From assembly GCA_016788665.1 (NCBI GenBank), contig JAEUSF010000007.1, forward strand, positions 1 to 45,952: a DNA stretch of 45,952 bases. The letters are read 5' to 3'. The notes beneath the pieces are model-generated. The model was not told the origin of the DNA. It was given only the letters and a program-made list of their open reading frames with translations, and searched no databases. Source of the stretch: Candidatus Doudnabacteria bacterium. Lineage in GTDB: Bacteria > Patescibacteriota > Doudnabacteria > UBA920. Every line of letters begins with the position of its first letter. Position 1 is the stretch's first letter. The translations under genes and the position numbers were made by a program. Positions 25,062-43,956 of this stretch are shown piece after piece.

Positions 25062-25105
25062 CTCGGTGTCCACTTTCTCACGGCCGTGAAAAAGTGGACA
25101 CCGAG
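25062..25105. repeat. 44-bp near-perfect palindrome without loop
   Basis: Two 22-nt arms that begin CTCGGTGTCCACTTT and end AAAGTGGACACCGAG, meeting at CACGGCCGTG, with one mismatched position. No T tract follows, so it is not a typical terminator. Confidence 0.85.
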
Positions 25106-25155: not shown

Positions 25156-25183
25156 GATGGGAGTCTTCGGGAAGACTCCCATC
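25156..25183. repeat. Dispersed 28-bp palindrome, copy 1 (centre GG)
   Basis: Arms GATGGGAGTCTTC and GAAGACTCCCATC separated by GG. Same arms, different centre, occur at 29718, 35617 and 36239. Confidence 0.95.
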
Positions 25184-25198
25184 AGTGGATCGTTTTTA

Positions 25199-25217
25199 TG
25201 GCAGGGCGGTAGGAATC
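25199..25217 (-). repeat. Truncated copy of the tRNA-Trp 3' end
   Basis: Nineteen bases matching the last 20 bases of tRNA-Trp including the CCA end (read on plus as TGGCAGGGCGGTAGGAATC), with one G missing, 172 bp downstream of the tRNA's own 3' end. Could be an attachment-site remnant or a decayed duplicate. Confidence 0.6.
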
Positions 25218-25332
25218 CTTTTTGCTCCGACAAAAAGCCGGGGTGCTAGACTCAAGAAGCTGTACTAGCTCGCTTCTTTCCGCTCGCTGACTAGCTATCT
25301 CCCACCCTTCGATTCCTTTGTCTACTATTATA

Positions 25333-25370: not shown

Positions 25371-25444
25371 TGGCAGGGGCGGTAGGAATCGAACCCACGC
25401 AAGCGGTTTTGGAGACCGCTGTACTACCATTATACGACGCCCCC
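25371..25444 (-). tRNA. tRNA-Trp (anticodon CCA)
   Basis: Cloverleaf read on the minus strand: anticodon stem GCGGT/ACCGC around CTCCAAA gives anticodon CCA; T arm GTGGGTTCGATTCCTAC; acceptor GGGGGCG with CGCCCCT (first pair G-U), discriminator G and an encoded CCA. Fits the standard code in which TGA is a stop. Confidence 0.95.
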
Positions 25445-29717: not shown

Positions 29718-29745
29718 GATGGGAGTCTTCCAGAAGACTCCCATC
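29718..29745. repeat. Dispersed 28-bp palindrome, copy 2 (centre CA)
   Basis: Same 13-nt arms as copy 1, with CA between them; placed just after the tRNA-Tyr terminator and before the DUF1801 gene. Confidence 0.95.
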
Positions 29746-34573: not shown

Positions 34574-34606
34574 ATAAAAAAATACCCAGAACTATTAAGT
34601 TCTGGG
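34574..34606 (-). terminator. Terminator of the 142-aa gene
   Basis: Perfect arms CCCAGAACT and AGTTCTGGG, then TATTTTTTT on the minus strand; the stem contains the stop codon region. Confidence 0.85.
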
Positions 34607-35023
34607 CGCGGCCTTAAACACAACTGCGTAAAAATGGGGCAGGAGCTTTTGCTCCGAGTGGCAGCTGCCAAAAACCCATTTATTATTGGCGGGGTCAAAG
34701 CGTATGTAGATATAACGTACGCTTTTGTCGTCGCTTCGGTACAAACGGGTTCCTGGAAAGATTACGCATTTCCCTTCCCAGGTTGGTGGGATCAGTGCCG
34801 GGCTTTGCAGTAGTGTCTCGGCGTGGCGTACGCCCGGTAGAGATCGGCGCACTAGTTGCCGAATCTTTATTCTTGCCTTTTTATTTTCCCCCTTTTCTGC
34901 CCCTACCCGGAGCAACAAGATGTCACTCAGGTCGAAGCGACCGATTTTTGCACTGCGGCTGTCATCGGTCACATAACCTTTAAAACCTGTCCAATGTTTA
35001 GGGTTAGACGAAATTACAATCAT
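34595..35023 (-). CDS. Hypothetical protein of the W-G-IFPGT pair, member 1
   Basis: A 142-aa protein. The start chosen is the ATG at 35023 (MIVISSN), just after an AAAGGAGGGG ribosome site; the longer ORF has none. The N-terminal half is basic; the C-terminal half carries WEGKCVIFPGT, then YIYIRFDPANNKWVFGS, shared with the neighbouring gene. Predicted soluble, beta-rich. Promoter TTGCTT-17-TTAAAT upstream, terminator overlapping the stop. No family recognised. Confidence 0.72.
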   Translation of the reverse strand: MIVISSNPKHWTGFKGYVTDDSRSAKIGRFDLSDILLLRVGAEKGENKKARIKIRQLVRRSLPGVRHAETLLQSPALIPPTWEGKCVIFPGTRLYRSDDKSVRYIYIRFDPANNKWVFGSCHSEQKLLPHFYAVVFKAAPRT

Positions 35024-35055
35024 CCATCCCCTCCTTTCGAAAACTCCAACTAAAC

Positions 35056-35084
35056 ATTTAACCATAAAAATGAAAATTAAGCAA
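35056..35084 (-). promoter_or_regulatory. Possible promoter of the 142-aa gene
   Basis: Minus strand reads TTGCTT, 17-bp spacer, TTAAAT. Confidence 0.5.
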
Positions 35085-35100: not shown

Positions 35101-35136
35101 AAAAAAACCTATTAAAAGCTAAGGCTTTATAGGTTT
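35101..35136 (-). terminator. Terminator of the 124-aa gene
   Basis: Imperfect arms AAACCTAT and ATAGGTTT with an inner AAGC/GCTT stem, then a T7 run on the minus strand; touches the stop codon. Confidence 0.75.
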
Positions 35137-35509
35137 AGGAGAGAGTAATAACTCTGTATTTCCCTGCGGCTGTGTAAGAGCCGTTTACGTAGGCTATTTT
35201 CCACGAGCCTAGGGCCTCGTCAAACAGTACGACGACTGCCTGGAAGCACTTCTTGCCTGGAGCCGAGCTTTTCCGGATGGTCCCGGGAAAGATGATGTAA
35301 AAACCTTTCCACTCGCTGGGCAGTTTTCTCTGCTCGATGGCTTGCTTGGCCTGCTTAAGGCCTAGTTTCTTTTTTAGTCTGCAGGCCACGCCGTGCTTTA
35401 CTCGGGGCTTTTGGGTAGGTGAGCTAACTTCGAGCAGCCCGAGTCGTGAATGCGTTATGTCTACTGGACAACTGGTATCAACCAGCTTCCATTCTCCGGC
35501 GTTTTCCAT
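35135..35509 (-). CDS. Hypothetical protein of the W-G-IFPGT pair, member 2
   Basis: A 124-aa protein starting at the ATG at 35509, 2-3 bp after an AAGGAGGC ribosome site. Shares with member 1 the segment WKGFYIIFPGT, then a hydrophobic strand ending VVVLFDEALGSWKIAYVNGS. The basic region before it (KHGVACRLKKKLGLKQAKQ) also corresponds to a basic stretch there. So the two are ancient duplicates, in tandem, same strand, each with its own promoter and terminator. Function unknown; the basic N-terminus may bind nucleic acid. Confidence 0.72.
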   Translation of the reverse strand: MENAGEWKLVDTSCPVDITHSRLGLLEVSSPTQKPRVKHGVACRLKKKLGLKQAKQAIEQRKLPSEWKGFYIIFPGTIRKSSAPGKKCFQAVVVLFDEALGSWKIAYVNGSYTAAGKYRVITLS

Positions 35510-35536: not shown

Positions 35537-35565
35537 ATTTTATATTTTTTTCATAATAAAATCAA
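35537..35565 (-). promoter_or_regulatory. Sigma70-type promoter of the 124-aa gene
   Basis: Minus strand reads TTGATT, 17-bp spacer, TAAAAT. Confidence 0.65.
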
Positions 35566-35587
35566 GGCTCTAGACCTTTTTAAAGTA

Positions 35588-35644
35588 AACTGTTAAGGCA
35601 TTTAAAGTATACAAAAGATGGGAGTCTTCTGGAAGACTCCCATC
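35588..35644. repeat. 57-bp repeat unit A containing palindrome copy 3 (centre TG)
   Basis: AACTGTTAAGG, AT-rich stretch, then the 28-bp palindrome (35617-35644). Five differences from unit B at 36210. It lies upstream of the 139-aa gene. Confidence 0.9.
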
Positions 35645-35692
35645 TTTTAGTATAATTCGTCGTATTTTTAATGAGAACAAAACGCCTTTAGC

Positions 35693-35722
35693 TTGACGTT
35701 AAAAAGGCTCATGTGAGAATAT
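35693..35722 (+). promoter_or_regulatory. Possible promoter of the 139-aa gene
   Basis: TTGACG, 18-bp spacer, GAATAT, 17 bp before the ATG. Confidence 0.55.
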
Positions 35723-35739
35723 GGTAAAGAGGAGGTAGT

Positions 35740-36159
35740 ATGATATCTGCAGACTTCATCAGGCAGGCTCGATTTTTTTTCTGGGGCGCGCCTTCGGTTC
35801 AGGTGTTGATAGTCCGCCCAGGAATACCGAGGCGAATTATTAACCGCAAAAGCTTTAAGGTAGATCTGGTGCCTTCGGGTATGTGTTCTCCTTTTTCAAC
35901 GCATTACGACCTGATTTGTGTTGAGGGGCGGTACAGCGCGGAGACAGTAAGGCATTTTGACCAAATGTACTTTTGTGTATTTCGCGTCGTCTTTGTGGCT
36001 TATAATCACGAAGATACAATACAAGTCCTGTCTAGGTCAGATCGGCAGTTCCCAAAGCTGTTTTCGGTTTTTGTGGCAGAACCAGCAGATGTGTTTTTGC
36101 AAAAAACCTGCTTTGAGCTTGGTCGCGCTTTCGCTTTAGAGCACTATAATTTTGACTGA
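35740..36159 (+). CDS. Hypothetical protein bracketed by repeats, 139 aa
   Basis: A 139-aa protein with an AGAGGAGG ribosome site 5 bp before ATG. Predicted soluble, mixed alpha/beta, rich in Phe and Arg, with three Cys; no signal peptide or known motif. The unit (promoter, gene, terminator) lies between two direct copies of a 57-bp repeat at 35588 and 36210, which is the mark of a cassette that was duplicated, inserted or excised as a block. Codon use is GC-richer than the adjoining metal ATPase. Function unknown. Confidence 0.72.
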   Translation: MISADFIRQARFFFWGAPSVQVLIVRPGIPRRIINRKSFKVDLVPSGMCSPFSTHYDLICVEGRYSAETVRHFDQMYFCVFRVVFVAYNHEDTIQVLSRSDRQFPKLFSVFVAEPADVFLQKTCFELGRAFALEHYNFD

Positions 36160-36165
36160 GTCTTT

Positions 36166-36193
36166 ACCGCCCGTGGAAGCGTGCGGTTTTTTT
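36166..36193 (+). terminator. Terminator of the 139-aa gene
   Basis: Arms ACCGC and GCGGT with an inner CG pair, then TTTTTTTAT; 7 bp after the stop. Confidence 0.7.
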
Positions 36194-36209
36194 ATACTTT
36201 TTCTTAGTT

Positions 36210-36266
36210 AACTGTTAAGGTATTTAAAATATATAAATGATGGGAGTCTTCTAGAAGACTCCCATC
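36210..36266. repeat. 57-bp repeat unit B containing palindrome copy 4 (centre TA)
   Basis: Direct repeat of unit A; the 28-bp palindrome occupies 36239-36266. It ends 12 bp from the stop of the metal ATPase gene, on which it converges. Confidence 0.9.
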
Positions 36267-36277
36267 ATTTACTTTTA

Positions 36278-38113
36278 TTATACCTTTTCAAAATTAACTC
36301 TTAGTGCGTTTAAAATAACTATGACATCTAAAACTTCTTGTAAAAGAGCGCCGTAAACAGGCATAATTTTTCCGGCAGCTGCAATAAACATGAGTAATAT
36401 ACTTACTCCCATGCCAATAAAAATTCCTTGTTTTGCTATGCGCATAACTTGGCGGGCGATTTTGTATGCTTCCCCTACTCTTTCTAGGTTGTCTACGGTT
36501 ATGACAATATCGCTGGTGTCGGAGCTGGCGGTGGAGCCGTGTCCGCCTAAAGCTATACCCACGTCTGCCGCGGCTAGGGCTGGTGCGTCGTTTACCCCGT
36601 CCCCAATCATTGCAACTTTACCAAATTGTTTTTTGTGGTCCTTTACTTCATTTACTTTGTCTTCGGGCAAAGATTCGGCATGAATATCTGTAAGTCCTAA
36701 CTGCCTGCCAATGTTGTCGGCAACCGATTGCTTGTCGCCAGTTAGCATAACAATTTTTTCCATGCCCAAATTCTTTAAATCCCTAAACACGTTTTTTATT
36801 TCAGGCCTTATTTTGTCGGCAAACATTACACTGCCTAAAAGCTTTTCGCCTTGTCCCAAGTAAACGGCAATAGTGCCACTGCCTTGTAGTTGGTCGTGAG
36901 ATTTTTTAATGCTTTCATCTACCTTTATGCCGTTGCTTTGCAAAAATTTGAGTTTGCCAAAATAATATTGTTTTCCTTCTATCTCTCCAGTCACGCCTTC
37001 CCCAAAAACTTCCTTAAAGTTTTTTGGATAAGAAATTTTAACATTATTTTTCTGTGAATAGGTTACTAATGAGCGCGCCAAAATGTGGGCGGAAAGTTGG
37101 TCTAAAGACGTCGCAATTTCTAAAACCTGTTTTTCTTCGGAGCTGACTTTAAATACCTCCGGCGTGCCTAGTGTTAAGGTTCCTGTTTTGTCGAAAATAA
37201 AAGCATCTGCTTCGGCCAAGTTTTCCAAAGCTGATCCACTTTTGATTATAATTCCCCGGCTGGCAGATTTAGCCAAACCCGAAATTATGGCAATAGGCGT
37301 GGCTAAAATAAGCGGACAAGGCGTTGCTACTACTAATACTGCTAAAAGCCTAACCGGATCGTGCGAAACTAGCCAAGCCAGAAGAGCTATAAAAAAAGTT
37401 ATGGCTGTAAACCATACGCTGTACCTGTCGGCCAGTCTTACAACTGGTGCCCTGCTTTCTTCCGCGTCTTTAATGAGTTTAATAATCTGTTCGTATTTGC
37501 TTTCATTTGCTTGTCTCACCGCTTTTATTTCAAGAGGGTTTTCTTTGTTTATACTTCCCGAAAGTAGTAAGCTGCCAGTCTGTTTTTCTTTTGGTACAGA
37601 TTCACCGGTAAGTGCGGATTCGTCAACTTCAGACTTGCCTTCTAAAACAATACCATCTACTGGAACCGCTTCCCCGGGTTTAATAACTATTATGTCTCCA
37701 ATTTTAACCTCGCTCGCTTGAACATCCAGTAAACCCGAGTTTGTTTTTATGTGTGCCACCGAAGGTGCATTGGAAATAAGTTGCGTAAGTTCCTTTCGTG
37801 CACGTCTGAGCGCGTATGCTTCCAAAGCTTCTCCGCCCGAAAGCATTAAAACTATAACAGAGCCTGCCAGATATTGCCCCAGAATAAAAGACGTTACTAT
37901 GGCGGTAATGGCTATAATATCCACACCGAAGTGCCCTCTTAAAAGGTCCTTTATAAGCCGAAACACTAAAGGCCCGGCACCAATTATAATAGTAATCATC
38001 CAAACCGTTTGGTCTAGCTTAGCATTACCGGTTAAATGGAAAAAGGCTCCTACAGCAAGTCCGGTCAGGGTTAGAAATGGAATGGTCACAAAACTTAAAA
38101 AACTTTTGTTCAT
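36278..38113 (-). CDS. Heavy-metal P1B-type ATPase
   Basis: An ATP-driven metal pump of the inner membrane, 611 aa from the start chosen (ATG 7 bp after a GGAG site; an ATG five codons upstream is the alternative). About eight membrane helices; phosphorylation site Asp308 in FDKTGTLT, TGES in the actuator domain, and MIGDGVNDAPAL near the C-terminus. The membrane metal motif is TPCPL instead of the common CPC, and the nucleotide-domain HP pair is replaced by HI (SAHILARS). There is no N-terminal metal-binding domain. The metal cannot be assigned; TPC-type pumps form a less-studied group. Confidence 0.93.
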   Translation of the reverse strand: MNKSFLSFVTIPFLTLTGLAVGAFFHLTGNAKLDQTVWMITIIIGAGPLVFRLIKDLLRGHFGVDIIAITAIVTSFILGQYLAGSVIVLMLSGGEALEAYALRRARKELTQLISNAPSVAHIKTNSGLLDVQASEVKIGDIIVIKPGEAVPVDGIVLEGKSEVDESALTGESVPKEKQTGSLLLSGSINKENPLEIKAVRQANESKYEQIIKLIKDAEESRAPVVRLADRYSVWFTAITFFIALLAWLVSHDPVRLLAVLVVATPCPLILATPIAIISGLAKSASRGIIIKSGSALENLAEADAFIFDKTGTLTLGTPEVFKVSSEEKQVLEIATSLDQLSAHILARSLVTYSQKNNVKISYPKNFKEVFGEGVTGEIEGKQYYFGKLKFLQSNGIKVDESIKKSHDQLQGSGTIAVYLGQGEKLLGSVMFADKIRPEIKNVFRDLKNLGMEKIVMLTGDKQSVADNIGRQLGLTDIHAESLPEDKVNEVKDHKKQFGKVAMIGDGVNDAPALAAADVGIALGGHGSTASSDTSDIVITVDNLERVGEAYKIARQVMRIAKQGIFIGMGVSILLMFIAAAGKIMPVYGALLQEVLDVIVILNALRVNFEKV

Positions 38114-38231
38114 AAAAAAACTCCACATTCTTGTGGGTTTTATGCCCGAACAAGAATCTTTATAAATCTAATAAATGAGATTCATATTGACTCTGCCCGG
38201 ATTGCCAATGCCTGCCCGACTTTTAGGGCCC

Positions 38232-43092: not shown

Positions 43093-43956
43093 AAGTACAA
43101 AAATATAGAAATCGAAATTCTTTTGGCTCATGTACTAAAAAAGCCAAAAGAATTTTTGTATTTGCATGCTGAATATAAATTAAGCCAAAATCAAGTTAAA
43201 AAACTAAAGCTGGCAGCGGACAGAAGACTTAAGGGTGAGCCGGTGGCTTATATTTTGGGCTATAAAGATTTTATGGGGTTGAGGTTTAAGGTAAATAAGT
43301 ATGTGCTTATCCCCCGTCCGGAAACGGAAGTACTAGTAGAAAAAATTTTGAATGCAGAGTTGAAAATAAGAAATGACAGAAAAAGACTTAGTATTTTAGA
43401 TATTGGGACTGGTAGTGGCTGTATAGCAATTTCAATTGACAAGTCTTTACAAAAATCAGGACTACCAGCTACAAGCTACCAGCTACAAGCTACCGATATT
43501 TCAGAACAGGCCCTTAAAGTTGCAAGAAAAAATGCCCGAAATATTTTTAGCAAATACTCCAATACTAGCGAGTATTGGAGAAAGGCTAAAATTAGGTTTG
43601 TAAAAAGTAATTTGCTGGAAAAAGTTAAAGGCAAGTTCGATATAATTGTGGCAAATCTGCCATACGGCTGGAGAGGTGTTAAAAATAGGTTTTCATCTGT
43701 ACGTGATGGATTAAAATTTGAGCCGCAATTGGCTTTGTACACAGAAGAAAGAGGGCTTAAACTTATAAGTCAGCTTTTACAACAAATAAAAAAAACCTAT
43801 ATCTTAAATTCTAAATCTTATATTTTCCTTGAGTTTGATCCGCGGCAAAAAAAAGAGCTTGCTGCTTTAATAAAAAAAATTATTCCTAAGGCTCGGCTTA
43901 AATTTTATAAAGATCTTGGCGGGCTCTGGAGAGTGGCAGAAATATATATACCATAA
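43069..43956 (+). CDS. prmC: Release factor glutamine methyltransferase
   Basis: Methylates the Gln of the GGQ motif in release factors with S-adenosylmethionine. The start chosen is the ATG at 43069 (MRIAEILQKY), which fits the family; the longer ORF runs through the antisense small gene. 295 aa: N-terminal helical domain, then motif I DIGTGSGCIAIS and the substrate motif NLPY, where most PrmC proteins have NPPY. Between them lies a repeat-rich stretch (tandem CTACCAGCTACAAG units at about 43462-43495, and a perfect hairpin at 43557-43580). Confidence 0.93.
   Translation: MRIAEILQKYKNIEIEILLAHVLKKPKEFLYLHAEYKLSQNQVKKLKLAADRRLKGEPVAYILGYKDFMGLRFKVNKYVLIPRPETEVLVEKILNAELKIRNDRKRLSILDIGTGSGCIAISIDKSLQKSGLPATSYQLQATDISEQALKVARKNARNIFSKYSNTSEYWRKAKIRFVKSNLLEKVKGKFDIIVANLPYGWRGVKNRFSSVRDGLKFEPQLALYTEERGLKLISQLLQQIKKTYILNSKSYIFLEFDPRQKKELAALIKKIIPKARLKFYKDLGGLWRVAEIYIP
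43557..43580. repeat. Perfect hairpin inside prmC
   Basis: Arms CTCCAATACT and AGTATTGGAG around AGCG, in frame within the prmC coding region, encoding a variable linker. Confidence 0.85.

Follow-up and report, generated by a model that had tools for sequence, protein, structure and literature searches.

Is a small gene held between two long direct repeats a cassette that can be excised or duplicated as a unit, or does the bracket have another origin? The case arises in a window of 45,952 nucleotides from a Candidatus Doudnabacteria genome, in which an alignment of 35588-35644 with 36210-36266 bears out the 57-bp direct repeats described in a first-pass annotation (exactly five mismatches), as well as the 28-bp palindrome, GATGGGAGTCTTC-YR-GAAGACTCCCATC, that it had placed at the end of each copy. 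Ungapped homology between the two sites reaches 87 nt at 83% identity (35571-35657 versus 36193-36279), which rules out a chance closeness of two palindromes. Paired AT flanks lengthen the palindromes to 36 bp in copy 1 and 38 bp in copy 2, yielding two REP/TIR-like elements without an assigned strand: palindrome A (35613-35648; core 35617-35644) has a TG loop, and palindrome B (36234-36271; core 36239-36266) is a perfect 38-bp palindrome with a TA centre. Between the two repeat copies, the palindromic core differs at 1 of 28 positions and the flanks at 14 of 59 (p = 0.03), so the sequence around the palindrome has decayed whereas the palindrome itself has been preserved or renewed.

The sole ORF between the repeats is an orphan gene of 139 aa on the + strand (35740-36159; GC 46%), with a Shine-Dalgarno AGGAGG at 35730-35735 and a coding-like frame (codon score 0.006, versus -0.25 to -0.6 in the other frames). 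Searches of Pfam, PHROGs, NCBIfam and PADLOC gave no hit for it, and it has no homologue in the related genomes, viral contigs, plasmids or phages searched; single-sequence AlphaFold2 models its protein at a pLDDT of 32, and an Rfam scan returned tRNAs only. The claim that exactly one promoter, gene and terminator lie between the repeats holds for the gene and for a terminator-like hairpin resembling an intrinsic terminator (36171-36193, + strand; stem 36171-36186 plus a T-run), but not for a single promoter: the promoter-like site TTGACG-16-GAGAAT, with an extended -10 (35693-35720, + strand), is a consensus match only, and the same kind of consensus scan picks out 18 promoter-like sites in the 5-kb region, compared with 7.9 in shuffles. 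Two neighbouring genes on the - strand, 34595-35065 and 35135-35509, are also orphans (GC 49-51%, no family matches), and the C-terminal halves of their products are similar by eye (FPGT.. and W.F.. motifs). Because three adjoining genes are orphan and GC-rich (46-51% versus 40%), this stretch may collect foreign genes generally.

The palindrome extends far beyond this bracket. The 1.06-Mb genome, that of an ultra-small bacterium of the Patescibacteria type, carries 11 copies with invariant 10-bp arms, nine of them dispersed and two at a transposase gene; the window alone holds four copies of the core (25156, 29718, 35617 and 36239), as against none in 100 shuffles. The further copies in the window, again without an assigned strand, are 25156-25183, with a GG loop and a TTAATGATG doublet upstream, and 29718-29745, downstream of tRNA-Tyr. 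All 11 appear extragenic, overlapping only doubtful ORFs or over-extended upstream gene starts, and they stand mostly singly, outside any cassette layout. Five are found where two genes converge, against an expectation of 13.6% (p = 0.010), two lie between divergent genes (35617 and C22:100109, contig and position), and one is 4-5 bp from two gene ends. The palindromes form strong hairpins, several with T-runs, and in the outer stem beyond the fixed 28 bp A-T and T-A pairs swap between copies, with 84% of cells paired versus 43-55% when slid. Read on the strand whose centre is TG (GG in one copy), 5 of the 11 copies have a TTAAWGATG-like doublet just upstream (C22:54053, C3:24635, C35:20759 and, in the window, 25159 and 29721), which hints that the element may have a direction, or else at a target. 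Next to the C32:39710 copy, an additional similarity of 50 bp was considered as part of the element and rejected, as it resembled promoters duplicated within an array of small genes. The palindrome is absent, at up to two mismatches, from 59 related genomes, none of them of the same genus, and its exact form has no match in about 85,000 other genomes or in viral contigs. Beside the copy at 25156, the 3' end of tRNA-Trp recurs over about 20 nt (GGCAGGG-CGGTAGGAATC) some 170 bp downstream of the tRNA gene (25198-25220 and 25371-25395), in what looks like a leftover att-type duplication.

Two copies on contig C22 flank, at 4 bp and 30 bp from its ends, the only Y1_Tnp gene in the genome (C22:99431-100078; PF01797, E = 1.1e-11). 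Its protein carries MPNHFH and YSKYFNKKY motifs (HxH and the catalytic Y) and matches the NF047646 REP-associated tyrosine transposase at E = 5.7e-16 and 58.7 bits, under the curated cut-off of 80. We fetched 80 relatives of this gene from the genome collection, with titles mostly from Patescibacteria (Doudnabacteria, Zambryskibacteria, Daviesbacteria and others), and tested 80 loci with enough flank, that of our own genome included, for matched palindromes, meaning that the palindromes of the two flanks have a stretch of at least 14 nt in common. Such pairs bracket 33 of the 80 RAYT loci, with 0.2 expected when left flanks are paired with right flanks of other loci; at 47 loci the same test gives no matched pair. 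The bracketing sequences vary from lineage to lineage; at several loci (e.g., L143 and L152) the palindrome consists of two copies of a smaller hairpin joined head to head. In pattern searches, the relatives' own palindrome families are largely confined to their genomes or close kin (six copies in G092, three in G065); the family of G009 has five copies, with similar sequences in its close kin G019. The palindromes have no conserved GT[AG]G foot, which occurs at 4 of 132 palindrome ends, about as often as by chance. Because matched bracketing recurs at so many transposase loci with lineage-specific palindromes, the most likely reading is that a RAYT/TIRYT-type transposase has the palindromes as its cognate REP/TIR elements, though they lack the canonical GTAG foot.

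Bracketing of a DNA-binding-protein gene alone is no proof of a transposition substrate, because a gene of the Trp-repressor family (PF01371) is also bracketed, by two of the seven copies of CAATACTAG-N-TAGTATTG in this genome (sites at C31:12933-13553, C30:56949, C31:49708, C33:30750, C33:39489 and window position 43560); the CTAG cores suggest that these copies are operators of the Trp-repressor-type regulator. Genes for PaaX_M (PF20803, a Cas2-like domain) are multi-copy in the relatives, being present in 46 of 60 genomes with up to 11 each, and matched perfect palindromes of 18-42 bp, most centred on CGGCCG or CGATCG, bracket 9 of the 24 tested (1.2 expected). The loci concerned are C3:3792-4389 in our own genome and L217, L221, L232, L233, L238, L241, L242, L244 and L245 elsewhere, and an isolated copy of a PaaX-type palindrome lies in the window at 25062-25105; this may be another gene system tied to palindromes, with either a mobile or a regulatory character. 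A further family, GAGGACGGCCCTC plus its complement, has some copies fused head to head and occurs in our own genome at C11:211549, C36:16219, C33:62475, C11:30231, C3:8254 and C6:13102.

If the palindrome is a dispersed element, what is the remainder of the 57-bp repeat? Judged from the alignments, the non-palindromic half was copied from the 3' end of the neighbouring gene and has since decayed; that gene encodes a heavy-metal P-type ATPase of 616 aa (36278-38128, - strand; TIGR01525, E = 7.5e-167). The true 3' end, X0 (36273-36317, - strand; ..VILNALRVNFEKV*), is the putative source of a first decayed copy, XA (35565-35609, - strand; antisense ..TLNALTVYFKKV*), and of a second, XB (36187-36231, - strand; antisense ..ILNTLTVN*). 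Over 45 bases, XB and X0 share 35 identities, XA and XB 32, and XA and X0 30; as the best match to X0 among 1500 random windows is also 30, none reaching 32, XA is linked to the ATPase end mainly via XB. XB and X0 flank palindrome B, 86 bp apart, and the resulting order, XA-palindrome-gene-XB-palindrome-X0, points to a local tandem duplication in which the ATPase end was copied along with the palindrome, the orphan gene lying inside.

We consider it probable that the palindromes are low-copy REP/TIR-like elements which at this locus were duplicated together with the ATPase end, and that the bracket around the gene is a by-product of this duplication rather than a dedicated cassette system. Their cognate enzyme would be the one Y1 (HUH, IS200-like) transposase of the genome, which is of the RAYT/TIRYT type. 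TnpAREP proteins act on single-stranded hairpins (PMC8266576), and judging from the RAYTs that have been studied, this transposase probably recognises its element in the same form and probably cuts and rejoins DNA beside the hairpin, scattering short copies between genes. One element sits at the 3' end of the heavy-metal ATPase gene, and the 3' end and palindrome would have been copied locally, from X0 to XB to XA, probably through (i) slippage provoked by the hairpin or (ii) cutting and rejoining by the transposase. The orphan gene, which looks foreign and has expression signals of its own, is now found between these units and would have come after the duplication; recombination may delete or duplicate it.

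The first-pass annotation saw in this arrangement a unit that recombination could excise or duplicate like a cassette. Recombination between the 57-bp repeats is indeed conceivable, and the three ATPase 3' ends are signs of tandem duplication, but a cassette takes more than this, and the palindrome turns out to be a dispersed element of 11 copies linked to the RAYT-like transposase. That the gene is a unit bounded by recombination sites and excised or exchanged as a module, either integron-like or as a transposase passenger between end hairpins, strikes us as improbable: the exact bracketing by direct repeats, the lack of relatives of the gene in the collections searched, its GC (46% versus 40%) and the shared orientation of both palindromes, as seen for the paired end hairpins of IS200/IS605 elements, would fit, but the extra homology is local ATPase sequence and no conserved site, the other palindrome copies are without it, and the one tyrosine recombinase gene of the genome, which may be of either the IntI or the XerC/D type, lies elsewhere, on contig C31. 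The positions of the palindromes also argue against such a module: only the transposase is bracketed in this genome, with no non-transposase gene between palindromes other than the orphan, and in three relatives (G092, G065 and G009) the genome's own dispersed palindromes bracket, judged by position, no gene but the transposase. Excision or mobility of the orphan gene is possible. We see a slim chance that the transposase mobilises the DNA between the two palindromes in trans, in which case the orphan gene, together with its promoter and its terminator, would be a captured passenger in a non-autonomous, gene-carrying REP composite of Patescibacteria.

Two further readings dispense with transposition. 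As bidirectional intrinsic terminators with a common sequence, the palindromes would have their strong hairpins, the T-runs of several copies and the enrichment between convergent genes explained, but identity at 20 arm positions and a nearly fixed 2-nt centre are needless for termination, the other terminators of the genome vary, and the copies at 35617 and C22:100109 stand between divergent genes; we regard this reading as unlikely, and termination may be a side effect of the palindromes. Very unlikely, in our view, is that they are operators of a transcription factor at about 11 sites and that the RAYT bracketing is incidental autoregulation. Dyad symmetry is expected of operators, and the Trp-repressor-type and PaaX-type genes described above show other palindrome families here bracketing genes for DNA-binding proteins, but operators are unexpected between convergent gene ends, where 5 of the 11 copies lie, one of them squeezed to within 4-5 bp of both, and matched bracketing persists at the 33 transposase loci despite differing palindrome sequences.

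The reading of the palindromes as low-copy elements of a RAYT/TIRYT-type transposase thus accounts for a class of palindrome easily taken for operators, terminators or cassette ends. Accounts of RAYT/REP systems deal chiefly with Proteobacteria, Cyanobacteria, Acidobacteria and similar phyla; the literature searched yielded no paper joining RAYT and Patescibacteria, which is no proof of nonexistence. With matched palindromes lacking the GTAG foot at 33 of 80 related transposase loci, mostly in Patescibacteria, these low-copy, perfectly palindromic elements in tiny genomes make up a set for studying the co-evolution of a domesticated transposase and its element.

Among known systems, integron cassettes resemble the locus in having a small orphan gene beside imperfectly repeated palindromic sites, but here the attC architecture (an imperfect hairpin with conserved boxes) is missing, the sites are dispersed perfect palindromes whose flanks are not conserved, and the flank that is shared is ATPase sequence. 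IS200/IS605 elements (IS608, ISDra2) have the same Y1 transposase family and hairpin ends; unlike them, the present system combines a single-copy transposase gene with many solo hairpins, and there is no sign of the gene moving as a unit. The REPtron with its REP/BIME elements (RAYT/TnpAREP; PMC2817692, PMC6006769, PMC8266576) comes nearer, as it too has a single-copy HUH-Y1 transposase of the RAYT type between its own palindromes, extragenic dispersed copies and a palindrome sequence that varies by lineage, and the fused inverted-dimer palindromes of several relatives recall the "double foot" REPs of subclass 2.4. Canonical REPs, however, are marked by a GTAG foot and usually exceed 100 copies per genome (PMC2817692, PMC8266576), whereas our palindrome has no GT[AG]G foot, 11 copies rather than hundreds, and a long, perfect form with a 2-nt centre. 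The TIRtron consists of a RAYT-like gene flanked by palindromic or inverted repeats that are in some cases self-complementary, are unrelated to GTAG REPs and form a moderately abundant family in some genomes; TIRtron/TIRYT hosts include Acidobacteria, Stenotrophomonas and others, and a GGGGWSAS motif is common to some TIRs (PMC3733652). Our system differs in its patescibacterial host and in the absence of GGGGWSAS from the palindrome, but shares a Y1 transposase gene between self-complementary repeats, a small dispersed family and the lack of a GTAG tag. The TIRtron is thus the closest description, and we place the system as a Patescibacteria member of the RAYT/TIRYT kind.
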